Source: Edaphobacter paludis
GTDB lineage: Bacteria; Acidobacteriota; Terriglobia; Terriglobales; Acidobacteriaceae
Direction of reading: 5' to 3'
Assembly: GCF_039993895.1 (NCBI RefSeq)
Contig: NZ_CP121194.1
Coordinates: forward strand, 1 to 64,000
Length of the DNA stretch: 64,000 nt
Position 1 is the first letter of the stretch. Each line of letters starts with the position of its first letter. This document shows, one piece after another, positions 16,014 to 45,386 of this stretch. The translations under genes and the position numbers were made by a program. A model generated the notes under the pieces. That model was not told the origin of the DNA. It made no database searches and saw only the letters and a program-made list of their open reading frames with translations.

Positions 16014-21782
<5,769 letters not shown>

Positions 21783-37682: not shown

Positions 37683-37966
37683 GAAATCGTCATCCGGCGC
37701 ATAGCAACCTCCTAAAAATTTCGCGATAGATCCATTTTCACAGATTATGTTCGCTCATTCTCTAATATTTCATATTCCGTATCGCCGTTCTTCACCAAAT
37801 GGTTCATTAGTTGCTGTTTGTTGCAAAAATCTGACTATGGCCTCCAACGTGCATGACCATTCGTAACCGTTGACGTGTTGGTTGGCAACGGCAGCTGAGG
37901 AAATGAGTAAGTTCCGATTTGCCACTCATCAGTTTCATACACAGCCTTGGGTCAGGAGTTCTATTC

Positions 37967-40900
37967 ATGCGTATACGGTCTTTCGCGGTAATCTCCGCAA
38001 TCTTGTTTGTTTTTATGGTGATGGCCGGGGTCGGTTTCTCTCAGACTGCCAGCGGTAATCTCGCAGGAACCGTTAAGGATGCAACTGGGGCAGTCATCCC
38101 CAATGCCACGGTCACCGCAGTCAATGAAGATACGAACATCTCATACAGCGGCAAAGGAAACTCCAGCGGCGACGTTCTCATCCCCAATCTTCCCTACGGA
38201 AACTATGATGTCACCGCTTCTTCCCCTGGCTTTACGAACTACACCCTCAAGGGCCTCCACATCGAAGTCGGCAAATCGTCTACTGCCAACCTGACGCTCT
38301 CCGTCTCCAGTGCCACCAGCGTCGAGGTTTCAGCAGTTGCGGCGGTTTCACTCGATACCACCAGCGCCAACCTCACGCAGACCTTCGAGCCTGCGGAACT
38401 CAAGATTCTGCCCAGCGCCACCGTCGGGCTCGGCGTGCTCAACGTCTCCCTTTTGAGCCCGGGCGTCGCCTCTAACGGCGGCATCGGCGCCGGCACCGGA
38501 CCTTCGGTCGGCGGCCAGCGTCCCCGCAACAATAACTACACCATCGAAGGTATCGATAATAACGACAAGGGCGTAACCGGTCCCCTCGTATATATCCCTA
38601 ACGACGCGGTAGGCGAATTCTCTCTCATTACCAATCAATTTTCGCCTGAGTTCGGCCACTCCTCCGGCGGCCAGTTCAGCACCAGCGTTATCAGCGGAAC
38701 CAATAAGTTCCACGGCGCGGCCTACGAATACTTCCAGAACCGCAATCTGAATGCCGAGAACGTTCCTGCCGGTCAACACCAGCCCAACCCGCGCTTCGAT
38801 TACAACCGTTATGGCGGTCAGGTTGGCGGTCCGATTCTCAAGGACAAGCTCTTCTTCTTCGGCAACTACGAGCGGCAGACCACCGGACAGAGCCTGCAAT
38901 CGTACGTTTGCACGCCGACGGCGGCTGGCCTCACCCAGATTCAGGCGATCCCTGGCCTCAATGCCACCAATGTGGGCCAGTATGTGAAGTACACTCCGGC
39001 TTCCCCCTCGCAGGTTGACGCTTCGGCAGATGTGGCGTGCTTCAATCAGGCGACCGGGCCGCAGACGATCTCAATCTTCAGCGGTACGGGCAACAGCGGC
39101 GACGGGAGCGGTACCGGAAATGGACCCGTACTTTCCGCCAACGTCGGCAGCCCGAGCTATGCTTCCGGCACCCAGTACAACATCCCTGTCGGCAACTACC
39201 TTGTCTCCTCGCCCACCTTTATCAACTTCGGCGCCCTCACGACCAGCGGCGACTGGACGATCTCACCGACCGATAACCTTCGCGTCCGCTACCTCTATAA
39301 CAGCAATACGCAGCAGGACACCGCGGCTGCGCTTCCGGTCTTCTATCAACCCCTGCCGCTGCGATACCACCTCGTTTCCATCAGCGAATTCCACACGTTT
39401 ACGCCTAACCTTACCAACGAGTTTCGCGTTGGCTTTACCCGCTTTACCCAGACTTATTCCGCCGGTAATTACAAATACCCCGGTTTGGACTCCTTCCCCA
39501 ACATCTATATCTATGACCAGAACGGCCTGGATTACGGTCCAGATGACAACGCTCCCCAGACCACGGTACAGAACCTGTACCAGGCTGTGGACAATATCTC
39601 CTGGATCAAGGGCAAGCATAACTTCAAGGTCGGTTTCGACGGACGCAAGTTCATTGCACCCCAGACCTTCACCCAGCGGGTTCGCGGCGACTATGAGTAC
39701 AACTACCTCACTGAGTATCTCCACGACCTCGCCCCCACCTCCTTCGGCGAGCGTTCCACCGGCAACTTCGTCTACTACGGCGACCAGACTGCACTCTATG
39801 GCTATGTCAACGACACATGGCGTGTAGCCCCCACGCTGACCCTCAACTACGGCTTGCGCTACGAGTTCACCTCGGTTCCCGTCGGTGAGCGCGCACAAAG
39901 CCTCAATAGCGCGGCCAGCGTTCCCGGCCTTATCAAATTCTCGTCACCCCAGCCTCAGTACACCAACTTCGCTCCCCGCGTAGGCATCAACTATGCGCCG
40001 GACGGCAAGACCTCGATTCGCGCCGCCTTCGGGATCGCCCAGGACGTGCTGTTCGACAACCTTGGCCTGCTCTCCTTCCCGCCACAGTATTCATCTACCA
40101 ATGACGTGGGAACCACGCCAGGACAACCGATCCCCGGCGACCCCAACTTCCTTACCAACGGCGGCCTGCCTGCGGGCAACGGCGCTCTCGCCACGTTCTG
40201 CCAGGATGGAACAGGCCCCGGCACTGGCGTTCCCTGCGCGCAGGATCTGTCCAAACAGCGTGCTGCCACTGCAGCCTACATGCCGGATCAGATCATTCCC
40301 TATGCGGAGACATGGTCACTCGGCGTCCAGCGTGTGTTCGCCTCTAACTACACCGCCGAAGTCCGTTACGTCGGCACTCGCGGCATTCACCTTCCGACCC
40401 AGATCCAGCTCAACGTACAGCCGAAGGTGAACGCGGGGAACCAGCTGTTTACCTCGCTCAATTCACCCGCCCTCATCGAAACAAACGCAAACGCCAGTAA
40501 TCTTGCCCAGATCGTAGCGGGTTCGAACATTCTTCCGAAGTACGCGGCGGCGGGATTCACCGGCAAGATCACCTCCTACCAGCCCTACTCTGGTTCCAGC
40601 TACAACGGTCTGCAGACCAACCTGACCCGGCGCTTCCAGCATGGCTTCCTGCTCAATGCTTCCTACACCTGGAGCAAGACTATGGATGATGCGACTGCAG
40701 AGGTCTTTTCTACGGTCCTTACGCCACGCCGTCCGCAGGACTCACAGAACGTCAACGCCGATTACAGCCGTTCGGCGCTGGATCGCACTCACCGCCTGAC
40801 GGTTGCGGCTGTCTACGATCTGCCCTACTTCAAGCACTCCAACTGGCTCAAGAAGAACATCATCGGCAACTGGGAGTTCTCACCCATCTACACCTACGAA

Positions 40901-41440
40901 TCGCCTGAGTATGCCACTGCACTCTCTGGGGTGAACTCGAATCTGAATGGTGATTCGGCGGGGATCGACCGTCCGATTATCAATCCGAATGGCAAGAAGG
41001 GGACCGGATCCGGTGTAACACCTGTCTACAGCATCAACCTTGCGAGCAATTGCGGGGCGGGTGTCGCCACTTGCAATGGCAATCTAGTTGGTTATACCGC
41101 AATCAACCCCAACGCCTATTACATCCAGGCGGGCAAAGGTACTCTGCCTACTGCCGGTCGTAATACCCTGCCGATTCGCCCCATCGACAACTTTGACCTG
41201 TCGGCGAGCAAGCGGATTAACATCACCGAGGGGCTGGCTATCGAGTTCCAGGCCCAGGCGTTCAACGTTCTCAATCACCCGCAGTACACCGCCGGGAAGA
41301 TCGATCAGATCGACCTGACCTCAACTCAAGGCACTTCCACGCAGTTTCAGACGGTGAGCAACCCGGCGTTCAATCACCCAGAGCTGCTCTTCAACCCCAA
41401 TGCCCGGCAGATGCAGCTGGCGGCCAAGCTTAGCTTCTAG
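37967..41440 (+). CDS. TonB-dependent receptor with carboxypeptidase-like regulatory domain (Oar-like)
   Basis: 1157 residues from ATG 37967 (AGGAG eight bases upstream). Signal peptide MRIRSFAVISAILFVFMVMAGVGFSQ, then a CarboxypepD_reg beta-sandwich (GNLAGTVKDATGAVIPNATV, about 26-110), a plug domain and a 22-strand outer-membrane barrel ending in aromatic LSF. This architecture is heavily expanded in Acidobacteria and is thought to import oligosaccharides or other large nutrients, or to export proteins. No SusD-like partner is adjacent, and the ligand is unknown. The 284-bp upstream region has no gene. A strong terminator follows. Confidence 0.93.
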   Translation: MRIRSFAVISAILFVFMVMAGVGFSQTASGNLAGTVKDATGAVIPNATVTAVNEDTNISYSGKGNSSGDVLIPNLPYGNYDVTASSPGFTNYTLKGLHIEVGKSSTANLTLSVSSATSVEVSAVAAVSLDTTSANLTQTFEPAELKILPSATVGLGVLNVSLLSPGVASNGGIGAGTGPSVGGQRPRNNNYTIEGIDNNDKGVTGPLVYIPNDAVGEFSLITNQFSPEFGHSSGGQFSTSVISGTNKFHGAAYEYFQNRNLNAENVPAGQHQPNPRFDYNRYGGQVGGPILKDKLFFFGNYERQTTGQSLQSYVCTPTAAGLTQIQAIPGLNATNVGQYVKYTPASPSQVDASADVACFNQATGPQTISIFSGTGNSGDGSGTGNGPVLSANVGSPSYASGTQYNIPVGNYLVSSPTFINFGALTTSGDWTISPTDNLRVRYLYNSNTQQDTAAALPVFYQPLPLRYHLVSISEFHTFTPNLTNEFRVGFTRFTQTYSAGNYKYPGLDSFPNIYIYDQNGLDYGPDDNAPQTTVQNLYQAVDNISWIKGKHNFKVGFDGRKFIAPQTFTQRVRGDYEYNYLTEYLHDLAPTSFGERSTGNFVYYGDQTALYGYVNDTWRVAPTLTLNYGLRYEFTSVPVGERAQSLNSAASVPGLIKFSSPQPQYTNFAPRVGINYAPDGKTSIRAAFGIAQDVLFDNLGLLSFPPQYSSTNDVGTTPGQPIPGDPNFLTNGGLPAGNGALATFCQDGTGPGTGVPCAQDLSKQRAATAAYMPDQIIPYAETWSLGVQRVFASNYTAEVRYVGTRGIHLPTQIQLNVQPKVNAGNQLFTSLNSPALIETNANASNLAQIVAGSNILPKYAAAGFTGKITSYQPYSGSSYNGLQTNLTRRFQHGFLLNASYTWSKTMDDATAEVFSTVLTPRRPQDSQNVNADYSRSALDRTHRLTVAAVYDLPYFKHSNWLKKNIIGNWEFSPIYTYESPEYATALSGVNSNLNGDSAGIDRPIINPNGKKGTGSGVTPVYSINLASNCGAGVATCNGNLVGYTAINPNAYYIQAGKGTLPTAGRNTLPIRPIDNFDLSASKRINITEGLAIEFQAQAFNVLNHPQYTAGKIDQIDLTSTQGTSTQFQTVSNPAFNHPELLFNPNARQMQLAAKLSF

Positions 41441-41458
41441 CTATCGGCGGCATTCAAC

Positions 41459-41495
41459 GAAAGGGGCGCTCCGTGATCCACGGAGCGCCCCTTTC
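41459..41495. terminator. Intrinsic terminator after the TonB receptor gene
   Basis: Perfect 17-bp stem (41459-41475 with 41479-41495) with a 3-nt loop. It lies between the rightward receptor gene and leftward rsfS and could serve both. Confidence 0.88.
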
Positions 41496-41530
41496 TCTTG
41501 TCCTGAAACGATACTGTGGTCAATACTGCG

Positions 41531-42100
41531 TTATTTTTTGCTGCTCTTTTTTGCTGCTACCTTTTTCGCTGCGGTCTTCTTGACGGCTACCTTTTTGGTT
41601 GCGGACTTCTTCGCAGGAGTCTTCTTTACTGCTGCCTTCTTCGCCGGAGCTTTCTTCACTGCGGCCTTCTTGGGCGGGATCGCCTTTGCCGGAGCCTTTT
41701 TCGCACGAACCGTTGCGATTCGTGCCTTCAGCTCGGCATTTAGATCGGCCACGCTCAGCGAAGTGGCAGTTTTGCGTAGCCGCTCCAGACCATAGAAGGC
41801 TCGTTTCTCTGCTGAAAATACATGGACGATAAAGTCCACATAGTCCATTAGGATCCACTCCGCTTGCCGTCGTCCTTCGACCGAGTTCGGATACACCCCA
41901 AACTCTCGTTTCAAACGAATCTCGATCTCGTCGGTGATGGCGACGTTCTGGCGTTCGTTGGTGCCATTGCAGATCAGAAAGTAGTCGGTAAGCCCGCTCT
42001 CCGCCGGGTCGAGCGCGAGAATTCGAATATCTTCAGCCTTTTTGTCTTCGCAAGCCGCGGCGGCGGCGAGCAGTAGCTGGTTGCTTTCCGTAGATGGCAT
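41531..42100 (-). CDS. rsfS: Ribosomal silencing factor RsfS with a Lys/Ala-rich histone-H1-like tail
   Basis: 189 residues from ATG 42100 (AAGGAG upstream); the frame open to 42154 is longer than needed. Residues 7-118 are the RsfS/Iojap domain (YFLICNGTNERQNVAI, GRRQAEWILMDYVDFIVHVF), which binds ribosomal protein uL14 and blocks joining of the subunits. Normal RsfS is about 105-120 residues. Here a 57-residue basic tail (133-189) contains KK doublets at strict five-residue spacing from 144 to 184, with Ala, Val, Thr and Pro between them, like the tails of bacterial histone-H1-like proteins. The tail probably binds rRNA or DNA. Confidence 0.93.
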   Translation of the reverse strand: MPSTESNQLLLAAAAACEDKKAEDIRILALDPAESGLTDYFLICNGTNERQNVAITDEIEIRLKREFGVYPNSVEGRRQAEWILMDYVDFIVHVFSAEKRAFYGLERLRKTATSLSVADLNAELKARIATVRAKKAPAKAIPPKKAAVKKAPAKKAAVKKTPAKKSATKKVAVKKTAAKKVAAKKSSKK

Positions 42101-42155
42101 GAGGCTCCTTAACGTCAATGGTAGCGGGTTGTGGCCGCAGAAGCCAGTGTTCATG

Positions 42156-43745
42156 CTATTTCTGCTGCTTCACCCAGGCGTCAAGATCGCCGGAGGTGTG
42201 CAATTGGCCGGCAATCAGGGCGTCCAGCAGCGATCGGGTGTGGACTGCCTTGAACGGCGTGTCGATTCGTGACCCTAGTTGCTGCCCTGGAAGCTTCACG
42301 ATGTAAGCCGGCCGGTCATCGAACTGGGCGCCGTGGCTGGCCGCTTCCTCTTCGGGCATCCAGCCTCTCATCTTCGACCACAGGAAGCTGGTCCGCCAGG
42401 AGTGGTCCCCCATAATCACGATCGCGGACGAATCCCACTCGTTCCGCTGCTGCAGCAGGCTGCGAACATGAGCAACATAGCTATCCGCGAGCGCAAGGTT
42501 ATCGATATAAGAAGACGGTCCAGTTGTGAGAATTTTATTGCGACGATCGTAGATGCCTTCCGGGTGCGGTATGGGCATATGCAGAAAGACGAAGTCTGCG
42601 TCTGAGTCTGCGAGCATAGAATCTCCTGCACTGCGAAGCTCGCGATAGTCGGCAATGTGAAGCCTGGTTTCCAGTTGAGGTTTGGCCGAAGCGGGGTGCT
42701 GGCCGGGAAGACGCACCGATATGGCCTTAATGCGATGAGCCATCTGCCGCAGCAGGTTATCGGAGAGACTCTGACCAGCAACGATGCCCCCGGGATAGGG
42801 AAGCTGAAAGGTCCAGAAGCAGTGATCGAGTACCTCGGGAAGAATGCGGCAATAGGGGTTATACCAGCCAGCTACCGCCGTGCTGTAACCGGCGTTCAAT
42901 GCATCCTGAAATACGGTCTGGTGAGGATCAAAGGGCTGCCACGTTTTTGTGTCCGGGCGATGCAGAGAGAGTTGCGCCCCACTGGAAGACACACGGATGT
43001 CATCTACCGGAAGGCCTGTCATCAGAGAAGGAATAGCTCTTTCGGTGAAATTGGCGGCGGGAACGACATGGGTGAAGACTACCGATTCGCGTGCGATGGC
43101 GTCGAAAGCGGGAAGCTCCAGGCCAGGAAATCGCCGTTCATAGACCTGCTGGTAAGAGAGTTCATCGAGCACAATCCAAATAATTCGCGGAGCCGAAGCC
43201 CGACGATGTGAGCTGACAGAATGTTGATGCAGCACGATGGGCGTGCTAAGTTCACGGGCCTGCCATCCATACCAGAGCAGTTGGCCCACGATGAAAATGC
43301 CATAGAGAGCGACAAAGCCGAGTACAACGCTCAGAAGCCCCTCAAGCCTTTGGAACGGTGGAAGGAATGCTGGTCTCCAGAAAACTGAAAGTGTGACAAA
43401 AGCCGTCAAGCACAAGGCGAGTAGAGATACGGTGACCGTATGAGGAATGACGAACCCGGCCAGCATCGATATGTTTTTCAGCAAAATCCATGGCAGAGAG
43501 AAGAGGATCGCAGACCAAATCTCGAATTGACGGCGGCCAGGCTTCTCCGCTAAAAGAAGCGCGAAGGAAAGAAGCGCCCAAAGCAAAAATAAGTCAAACA
43601 GTACCATTACAAAAAGGGTCAACGCCGGGCCGCTGGTGTGATAAAGGGCGGTATGCGCTGGGGCGATGAGGGGTCCAACAATGGCAAGCAGGCATAATGT
43701 CGCTATGCCAAAGGCGACAAGGACCGGATGGAAGGGACGCTTCAT
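42156..43745 (-). CDS. Membrane-anchored sulfatase/alkaline-phosphatase-superfamily protein (LTA synthase or EptA-like)
   Basis: 529 residues. Five membrane helices occupy the first 165 residues, then a periplasmic alkaline-phosphatase fold. The metal and active-site residues are visible: IVLDELSYQ (Asp), ANFTERAIPSLMTG (Thr nucleophile) and IVIMGDHSWRT (Asp-His). The layout matches phosphoglycerol or phosphoethanolamine transferases that decorate envelope glycans or lipids. The start is 2 bp after the methyltransferase stop, so the two are cotranslated. The donor and acceptor cannot be read from the sequence. Confidence 0.85.
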   Translation of the reverse strand: MKRPFHPVLVAFGIATLCLLAIVGPLIAPAHTALYHTSGPALTLFVMVLFDLFLLWALLSFALLLAEKPGRRQFEIWSAILFSLPWILLKNISMLAGFVIPHTVTVSLLALCLTAFVTLSVFWRPAFLPPFQRLEGLLSVVLGFVALYGIFIVGQLLWYGWQARELSTPIVLHQHSVSSHRRASAPRIIWIVLDELSYQQVYERRFPGLELPAFDAIARESVVFTHVVPAANFTERAIPSLMTGLPVDDIRVSSSGAQLSLHRPDTKTWQPFDPHQTVFQDALNAGYSTAVAGWYNPYCRILPEVLDHCFWTFQLPYPGGIVAGQSLSDNLLRQMAHRIKAISVRLPGQHPASAKPQLETRLHIADYRELRSAGDSMLADSDADFVFLHMPIPHPEGIYDRRNKILTTGPSSYIDNLALADSYVAHVRSLLQQRNEWDSSAIVIMGDHSWRTSFLWSKMRGWMPEEEAASHGAQFDDRPAYIVKLPGQQLGSRIDTPFKAVHTRSLLDALIAGQLHTSGDLDAWVKQQK

Positions 43746-43747
43746 GA

Positions 43748-45154
43748 TTATCTTTTGAGCAGATGGAACAGTATGCGTCCATTCTGCAAAGTGCTCTCAT
43801 TGAGGACACTGAAGTGCTCTGCGAAGGCATCGCGGAATGCGGTTTCGCTAATGTGAGCGTAGATGCTGTCCCGCCCGCGTACTAACTCCTGAAACTTCGG
43901 GTCGGTCGGCGGTACCCATTCGATAATCAGATTCCGTGTCGTGAGATTGCCGCACAAGGCGGCGATGCTGTTCATGGGAATCTGGCTGCGGAGCAGCAGA
44001 TGATGCAGCACTGCGAGGATCATCACCGTATCGAAATGCCCGGAGCAGCGACTGAGGAAGGAAGCGTTCTCGCGATTTTCCCAGCCGACAGAGGGTGTGG
44101 GATGGGCAAGATCGACGCACAGCGGCAGGATATTTTTGTCGCTTCCCTTCAGCATTGCGCATAGGCGATCGACCGTCTGGAGATCGGTGTCGATCGAAAC
44201 GACCTTGGCGCCTGCATCGGCGGCCAGCATGGAATAGACACCTGTGTTGCAGCCGACATCGAGAACGCGTGAAGGTGCAGCCGCAGCGAGTGCGTCGGCA
44301 ACGAAGCGGCGCTTGCCGGCATGGTCTTCCTCGCTATAGTGGGTTGCCGTCTCCGCGTAGTCCGACCATGTGGATGTTTTATGCGCCGGAGTGACCTGAC
44401 GCATGTGCGCGAGCAGACCTTTCAGGGTCTTCAGCAGGATATGTTTCGTGACTTCCGGATCTTTGACAGTGCGGGACGCAATGCCGGCAGTTGCGAGCTT
44501 TTTACTATTTGCCAGCAGCGAGGGGAGGGTAACGGCAGAGAGGGCAGGTTGTCGGATACGCGAAGACCACGGCAGAGCAGTGTAAATTTCCTCAGGCTCA
44601 TAACCGTCTCGTCGGGTCAGAACTCCTTGCAGAGGCCAGCCGAGTTGCGAGTAGGCGAGCATTGGCAGCAGAAAAGTGCGGACAAATTGTCCATAGGGAT
44701 ACCAGATGGGCTGGTCAGGAACCGCACGCTCGATAGAGAGCACATCGACAAAGACCGGCTTCATACCTTGAAACAGTACGTTGAGCGGAGTCGCGTCTTT
44801 CAGGAGCCAGCCCTGCTTGACGAGGTCGCTGCAGAGATTCAGCGTCAGTTCGGCGGCGGCGAGCCAAAGGGAAGGCGGCCACTCCCACGGATAAGAGGGA
44901 AATGCGATGCGCGGATGGCGGAGGGTGAGCGTCTCGGAGTCAGTGCCGGGATAAGAGCCGCGGGGCAATACTTCGCTGGCAACAAGGCGGTTATTGGCGA
45001 CGAGTTCGGAAGCGAGAGGCAGAGCGAGAAACTTGAGTATTTCGGCGTCGAATGGAGAGCGGATCGTGCGATACACTGCGTCCGATTTGATCTCTACATA
45101 TCCTGCGGGGTCACGAAATGTCGGGAGAAAGGGGAAAGAAGACAATTCCGCCAT
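43748..45154 (-). CDS. Two-domain protein: kinase-like N-terminus plus class I SAM methyltransferase (NoeA-like)
   Basis: 468 residues from ATG 45154, one base after the stop of the small upstream gene (TGA-C-ATG). The C-terminal half is a Rossmann methyltransferase (motif I VLDVGCNTGVYS; VSIDTD; VMILAVLHHLL). The N-terminal half contains GWLLKDATPLNVLF then PVFVDVLSIE, which resembles the catalytic loop (D...N) and metal Asp of small-molecule or LPS kinases. It resembles NoeA-like nodulation/host-specificity proteins thought to modify glycans. It lies in a three-gene operon with a YVDPGS membrane protein and a sulfatase-like transferase. Confidence 0.85.
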   Translation of the reverse strand: MAELSSFPFLPTFRDPAGYVEIKSDAVYRTIRSPFDAEILKFLALPLASELVANNRLVASEVLPRGSYPGTDSETLTLRHPRIAFPSYPWEWPPSLWLAAAELTLNLCSDLVKQGWLLKDATPLNVLFQGMKPVFVDVLSIERAVPDQPIWYPYGQFVRTFLLPMLAYSQLGWPLQGVLTRRDGYEPEEIYTALPWSSRIRQPALSAVTLPSLLANSKKLATAGIASRTVKDPEVTKHILLKTLKGLLAHMRQVTPAHKTSTWSDYAETATHYSEEDHAGKRRFVADALAAAAPSRVLDVGCNTGVYSMLAADAGAKVVSIDTDLQTVDRLCAMLKGSDKNILPLCVDLAHPTPSVGWENRENASFLSRCSGHFDTVMILAVLHHLLLRSQIPMNSIAALCGNLTTRNLIIEWVPPTDPKFQELVRGRDSIYAHISETAFRDAFAEHFSVLNESTLQNGRILFHLLKR

Positions 45155-45155
45155 G

Positions 45156-45386
45156 TCAGCGCGATTTGCCCGATACGTCAGTCGCATCAGCGGAGGATCG
45201 CGTGAAGAGCGCTTTTATTTTGCGGCGAAAGTAGAAGATGGCCCCGGTAACAATGGCACTAAGGCTTTGAAAGAGAAGAAGGCTTGAACCTGGATCGACA
45301 TATGCGTAAGCGCGCCGTTCGAAGCAGAAGCTGAGTGCGACAAAGAGAGCCGCCGTTACCGCGAAATATTTTAATTTCAATGCCAT
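45156..45386 (-). CDS. Small YVDPGS-motif membrane protein
   Basis: 76 residues. A signal anchor or signal peptide (about 6-27) ends in AYA, then YVDPGSSLLLFQSLSAIVTGAIFYFRRKI, a motif plus membrane helix seen in small proteins linked to exopolysaccharide and sulfatase-like loci. The basic C-terminal tail is cytoplasmic. GGAGCAGCAATG upstream supplies the RBS. It is the first gene of the three-gene unit 45386-42156. It may help anchor or assemble the envelope-modifying enzymes; no function is established. Confidence 0.75.
   Translation of the reverse strand: MALKLKYFAVTAALFVALSFCFERRAYAYVDPGSSLLLFQSLSAIVTGAIFYFRRKIKALFTRSSADATDVSGKSR

Follow-up and report, generated by a model that had tools for sequence, protein, structure and literature searches.

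The rsfS locus of Edaphobacter paludis

The window, i.e. the whole analyzed stretch of 64,000 nucleotides of DNA from the soil bacterium E. paludis, carries on its minus strand the gene rsfS, whose product combines an RsfS core with a linker helix and a polycationic tail. The relevant features, with the supporting lines of evidence in parentheses, are as follows:

41531..42100, minus strand: rsfS coding sequence, 189 aa (open reading frame, Pfam, NCBIfam, same-genus alignment)
41777..42067, minus strand: RsfS core, residues 12-108, PF02410 / TIGR00090 (Pfam, NCBIfam, AlphaFold, Foldseek)
41699..41752, minus strand: linker helix, residues 117-134, VADLNAELKARIATVRAK (AlphaFold, genus alignment)
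41531..41704, minus strand: polycation tail, residues 133-189 plus stop (sequence counts, AlphaFold, Pfam)

The start codon of rsfS is the ATG at positions 42098-42100, which yields a product of 189 residues with an MPST start common to the same-genus relatives; if translation began instead at the ATG located upstream at 42154, the product would have 207 residues. Upstream of the gene lie a sulfatase-fold gene and a methyltransferase gene (42156-45187, minus strand), and downstream follows a convergent gene (37919-41440, plus strand) that by eye resembles a TonB receptor. A promoter scan of positions 41300-42300 returned no promoter-like site, and a terminator scan of the same interval identified two overlapping plus-strand terminator-like sites within the tail region, at the level obtained with shuffled sequence. 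The plus-strand frame at 41400-41795 is an F-rich antisense shadow.

The host protein of the tail is a genuine RsfS that agrees with the RsfS/YbeB/Iojap family (PF02410, TIGR00090) in its predicted fold, in the sequence of its core and in the residues that are most conserved. Its match to the Pfam family PF02410 (E = 4e-29) scores 101 bits (cut-off 21.6), and that to the NCBIfam equivalog TIGR00090 scores 91.7 bits (cut-off 56.9). In an AlphaFold model based on 35 aligned proteins, the block pLDDT is 84-98 up to residue 100 and ~74 for residues 101-110. When this model was compared with the PDB using Foldseek, it matched the solved RsfS structures 2o5a, 4wcw and 6sj6 at E ~1e-10, with target-normalised TM scores of 0.85-0.87, as well as 9ss4; the solved RsfS proteins matched by the core are those of Bacillus, Mycobacterium and Staphylococcus. 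Among the 35 aligned RsfS proteins, W82 and D86 are invariant and R100 is conserved in at least 90%. By alignment offset, these residues correspond to W77, D81 and R95 of E. coli RsfS, which have been described as the three most conserved residues of that protein, located on its predicted uL14 side (PMC3400551).

A linker helix and a lysine-rich tail follow the core

Most sampled RsfS proteins from other acidobacterial families stop ~10-25 residues past the core, mostly before or near the position of the linker helix, whereas the E. paludis protein adds this helix and a 57-residue tail. The linker helix (residues 117-134) is a predicted one, with a block pLDDT of ~84 for residues 111-130, and across the genus it contains R132 in all cases and E123 in 93%. 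The tail (residues 133-189) is unstructured in the AlphaFold model, with a pLDDT of ~50. It is of the K/A/P/T/V type, with 23 lysines among its 57 residues and not a single arginine, aspartate or glutamate. KK pairs occupy positions 144, 149, 154, 159, 164, 169, 174, 179 and 184, thus forming a strict run of nine at five-residue steps, and further pairs are found outside this run at 134 and 188. None of 200,000 shuffles of the 57 tail residues produced a run of nine; the maximum was six, reached in 12 shuffles.

In Pfam, the tail comes closest to HC2 (PF07382), at 26.3 bits under a gathering cut-off of 40; in NCBIfam, it has sub-threshold matches to the end of a valine--tRNA ligase model and to a model for histone H1-like proteins. 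Lysine-rich pentamer repeats, the trait expected of HC2, are present in the form of the nine KK pairs; membership of the tail in HC2 was rejected given its score and the in-frame fusion of the repeat behind the RsfS domain. Taken together with the above-cut-off matches of the core, these data bear out the initial annotation, which had described a histone H1-like tail of 57 residues with strictly spaced KK pairs from 144 to 184 that renders this RsfS unusually long.

A 15-bp period had also been pointed out in the underlying DNA. The period is real, with Tandem Repeats Finder reporting weak 15-, 30- and 45-bp periods in the tail DNA, but it does not reflect a DNA repeat in its own right and is explained by the amino acids and the codon pool. 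The nine 15-bp units show a mean identity of 61%, compared with 60 ± 1% after reshuffling of the codons within the tail (p = 0.22). Because the units are no more similar than these controls, the 15-bp period is a consequence of the repeat in the protein, with nothing to suggest a recent duplication of 15-bp units. Fresh slippage was likewise rejected, since the relatives are tailed and the units no more alike than the codon-shuffled controls. A sequence error expanding the repeat, a caveat raised by the initial annotation, was ruled out, as tails with arrangements of their own are present in independent genomes. Elsewhere in the window, a 276-bp unit is repeated in tandem (8.4 copies, 75% matches) at 18925-21233.

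The tail is a single-origin trait of one Acidobacteriota family

RsfS was found in 58 of the 62 same-genus genomes searched, and all 58 matched genomes were read, with one open frame left out of the counts. In each of the 57 closed frames, the core is followed by 58-127 residues with a net charge of at least +8 (median +23); the absence of the tail from close relatives, named as a refuting outcome by the initial annotation, is thus not observed. The longest strict KK run comprises nine pairs in E. paludis and 1-7 in the other members of the genus. Among the 55 other non-redundant genus tails, a KK-to-KK spacing of 5 was observed 150 times, compared with 31 occurrences expected (relatedness uncorrected). 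The KK pentad is a genus-wide tendency, with E. paludis as its most regular case. The mean same-genus identity to E. paludis RsfS is 94% in the core, 62% in the helix and 41% in the aligned tail, and aspartate plus glutamate account for 1.3% of the tail segment as opposed to 18.6% of the core.

A search of 299 family genomes, including the genus, matched 260 other family members, from which 69 loci were read. Here, as in every search, the first loci (30 in this case) were the best-scoring ones, and later ones were hand-picked from lower ranks. Of the 30 closed best-scoring frames, 27 showed a tail of at least 30 residues with a net charge of at least +8, and the remaining three were 28-29 residues long; arginine is about as frequent as lysine in these tails. 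Basic tails were also evident by inspection in 18 lower-scoring and 20 further family loci. By contrast, no basic tail was detected in 56 sampled loci from other families of the class (111 matched genomes), and a single one in 68 sampled loci from other classes of the phylum (129 matched genomes), so that a phylum-wide trait was rejected. The survey of acidobacterial RsfS C-termini suggested by the initial annotation hence reveals a basic tail that is family-wide, but strict pentads that are only the extreme of a genus tendency and a trait that does not extend to the phylum.

In a tree of 124 cores, in which a slightly looser tail rule was applied (28 residues, net charge +7), all 83 family rows were tailed as opposed to none of the 41 rows outside, with a single change on a branch with a support of 100/93. 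The tree includes about a quarter of the genus rows and about a third of the class and phylum rows, with open frames left out; it is built from few columns, and many of its inner forks are weak. Tails that are rich in lysine and preceded by the helix occur mostly in one nested group of 31 rows, to which the genus of E. paludis belongs; the deep genera of the family display tails of mixed arginine and lysine content, and the E. paludis genus lysine-rich ones. The tail, a single-origin trait of one Acidobacteriota family, predates the strict pentads and is more widely distributed than they are, and the family keeps its charge while the letters drift.

The length of the tail is also of relevance for a potential role during synthesis, in which the basic nascent chain would slow termination in the exit tunnel and thereby tune RsfS output. 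Basic nascent chains can indeed slow ribosomes, but the natural tails range from ~28 to more than 100 residues, and we consider such a role extremely unlikely.

Tailed RsfS proteins recur in other phyla

A scan of the genome collection identified RsfS proteins with an H1-like tail in one Verrucomicrobiota, one Pseudomonadota and one Elusimicrobiota genome, all of them RsfS by Pfam; the scan used six patterns, two of them tail peptides, and is uninformative on the frequency of the trait in these phyla. The Verrucomicrobiota case (L330) scores 41.3 bits against HC2, above the cut-off, and 22 of 30 RsfS proteins from its family possess a tail of at least 30 residues with a net charge of at least +8. 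In two other Verrucomicrobia records of the scan (L320 and L326), RsfS stops nine residues past the core. The RsfS tail has therefore arisen more than once. At L330, a gene that looks nadD-like lies upstream of rsfS, a position from which it is absent in E. paludis. Two records titled Verrucomicrobia and Acidimicrobiia (L282 and L310) contain an acidobacterial-type RsfS, and their titles or bins look wrong. Another long KK-pentad locus is found in the Verrucomicrobiota genome G588 (C147:17784-17924, minus strand).

The same module occurs on few other proteins

In the 4.04-Mb E. paludis genome, the strict three-unit KK pattern is found at only four loci, namely rsfS and the genes for the ribosomal protein uL22, a DUF6496 protein and a 280-aa protein. 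The lysine-rich extension of uL22 is C-terminal (L147 1164-1691, plus strand; C1 ~755.7-756.2 kb). The DUF6496 protein (126 aa; L148 1424-1804, minus strand; C1 near 3726.1 kb) carries KK pentads at its N-terminus and is possibly an H1-like protein. The 280-aa protein (L146 1450-2292, plus strand; C1 near 558.4 kb) has an acidic first part and lysine pentads in its second, with an HC2 score of 33.6 bits, below the cut-off of 40. With a looser pattern, a fifth locus can be added (L269 1024-1644, plus strand; C1 near 3804.9 kb): it encodes a response regulator of a single domain with an H1-like KK/KAPA tail behind it, and its opposite-strand neighbor appears IF-3-like by eye.

A basic uL22 tail (at least 25 residues, net charge at least +8) was present in 25 of the 30 family genomes read (of 31) and in three of the best-scoring 30 of 61 class genomes, all from other families; these three belong to a single family, f6. 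In other genomes of f6 (loci L182 and L184, for instance), RsfS shows no basic tail at its end. In the Verrucomicrobiota family, none of the 27 genomes read (of 31) encodes a basic uL22 tail; therefore, RsfS, rather than the whole ribosome, is the target common to both phyla. The lysine counts of RsfS and uL22 were weakly correlated (Spearman 0.40, p = 0.055; 24 genomes, relatedness uncorrected). Given this weak correlation and the absence of uL22 tails in the Verrucomicrobiota family, strict coupling of the two tails is unsupported.

These distributions bear on the idea that the tail is non-adaptive, a KKxxx/Ala repeat to which the lineage is prone, added to a tolerant C-terminus and retained because it is nearly harmless. 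The rapid turnover of letters and length (58-127 residues past the core within the genus, 41% identity in the aligned tail) is in line with such an origin, as is the presence of similar repeats on other, unrelated E. paludis proteins, among them the response regulator. However, none of the 57 closed genus frames and none of the 83 family rows of the tree lacks the tail, in which acidic residues hardly occur; with only four strict-pattern loci, the repeat is not a widespread feature of the proteome; and RsfS gained such a tail again in another phylum. On balance, we regard a purely non-adaptive origin as unlikely.

A putative rRNA-binding arm

Few ribosome dormancy factors are as widespread as RsfS, which is accepted to act by one-to-one blocking via uL14. 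The initial annotation identified a true feature and assigned it a sensible class of functions, and binding of the tail to rRNA or the nucleoid is plausible by analogy. Because the tail is common to the family and has re-arisen in an unrelated phylum, it probably helps RsfS to grip ribosomal RNA. More specifically, it may serve as a disordered, polycationic arm with which RsfS is clamped to 50S rRNA near uL14, bL19 and H95, a proposal to which we give about an even chance. Once the RsfS core has docked on uL14 at the face of the 50S subunit, the arm would come to rest on nearby 23S rRNA in the area of H95 and bL19, gripping it non-specifically by many weak lysine-phosphate contacts, with the pentads distributing charge evenly over the chain without any need to fold. 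The affinity of RsfS for the 50S subunit and its dwell time would rise, and fewer copies of RsfS could suffice to keep 30S subunits off in starvation. Points in favor of this clamp are the identity of the host protein as RsfS, the unstructured nature of the tail, its preserved charge, its single origin in the family, its recurrence and the uL22 tails. Counted against it are the DNA-binding tails in HupB, TopA and PhaF/AlgP, the lack of strict coupling between the RsfS and uL22 tails and the fact that most RsfS proteins function without a tail.

Structural work on the ribosome places RsfS on uL14 and, for the S. aureus 50S subunit, counts bL19 and H95 among the components of the RsfS cavity; contacts between RsfS residues and rRNA phosphates have been proposed (PMC7125091). 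Close counterparts of the tail itself are chlamydial Hc2 (HctB) and the Hc2-like proteins of Burkholderia and Bordetella (BpH1), which contain comparable pentamers with two basic residues. In Hc2, these are reported to combine two basic with three mainly A/V/T/P residues, yielding an evenly spread charge, and to vary in number; moreover, Hc2 is described as having a higher affinity for RNA and repressing translation more strongly than Hc1 (PMC2848022). Unlike the RsfS repeat, which forms the C-terminal arm of a ribosome factor and remains under the HC2 cut-off, Hc2 is a free-standing chromatin protein.

The likeness to Hc2 in composition and pentads, i.e. to a DNA binder, is one reason to consider that the tail might instead contact DNA and hold RsfS, or RsfS-bound 50S subunits, at the chromosome and so couple dormancy to compaction of the nucleoid; a link between dormancy and nucleoid binding had already been put forward in the initial annotation. 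The genome also encodes the DUF6496 protein, which shares these repeats and fits this notion, as does the precedent of PhaF/AlgP (PMC9239181). However, a tail on a protein seated on rRNA would meet RNA first, and ribosomal uL22 bears the same type of tail in the family, so that a ribosomal target fits better; we therefore judge tethering to the nucleoid quite unlikely. Mycobacterial HupB and actinobacterial TopA possess a lysine-rich C-terminal arm as well, reported to increase the affinity, stability or processivity of a nucleic-acid-binding protein (PMC5676037; PMC7398561), but their ligand is DNA, whereas RsfS acts on the ribosome.

The KPAA domains of AlgP and PhaF resemble the RsfS tail in forming a disordered K/A/P arm behind a folded domain and differ from it in having KPAA repeats with single lysines on granule proteins. 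These arms have been tied to starvation granules, and AlgP is reported to move to polyphosphate granules under nitrogen starvation (PMC9239181), raising the question of whether the RsfS tail could bind polyphosphate or several RNAs in starvation and thus cluster silenced 50S subunits. A further parallel is provided by the KKE/D domains of yeast snoRNPs, equally lysine-rich and disordered, which reside on ribosome-making factors, concentrate them near rRNA and, together with RNA, form coacervates, with the nucleolus compacted under stress (PMC11528048). However, these eukaryotic tails are of mixed charge and include acidic residues, of which the RsfS tail has none, and we do not claim common ancestry. 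Such a condensing role appears quite improbable. The same holds for its more elaborate version, a doubtful scenario in which tailed RsfS would act as a multivalent cross-linker that gathers 50S subunits into starvation condensates through tail-rRNA or tail-polyphosphate contacts, representing a separate form of large-subunit storage that emerged independently in two phyla, possibly with lysine-tailed uL22 as an acidobacterial partner.

RsfS and, as exemplified by Hc2, AlgP/PhaF, HupB and TopA, this type of tail are already known; their combination appears to be new. A literature search covering mainly papers outside subscription journals returned no report of an RsfS lysine tail or of a lineage survey of RsfS C-termini. 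The fresh content lies in the scope of the phenomenon: a fixed, single-origin tail in one acidobacterial family that has a counterpart on uL22 and evolved anew in Verrucomicrobiota. The fixation of this arm in one family and its reinvention in another phylum suggest selection on the strength with which silenced 50S subunits are bound, on their localisation or on their clustering, and the lysine tails of uL22 in the family point to a wider change in ribosome surface charge.
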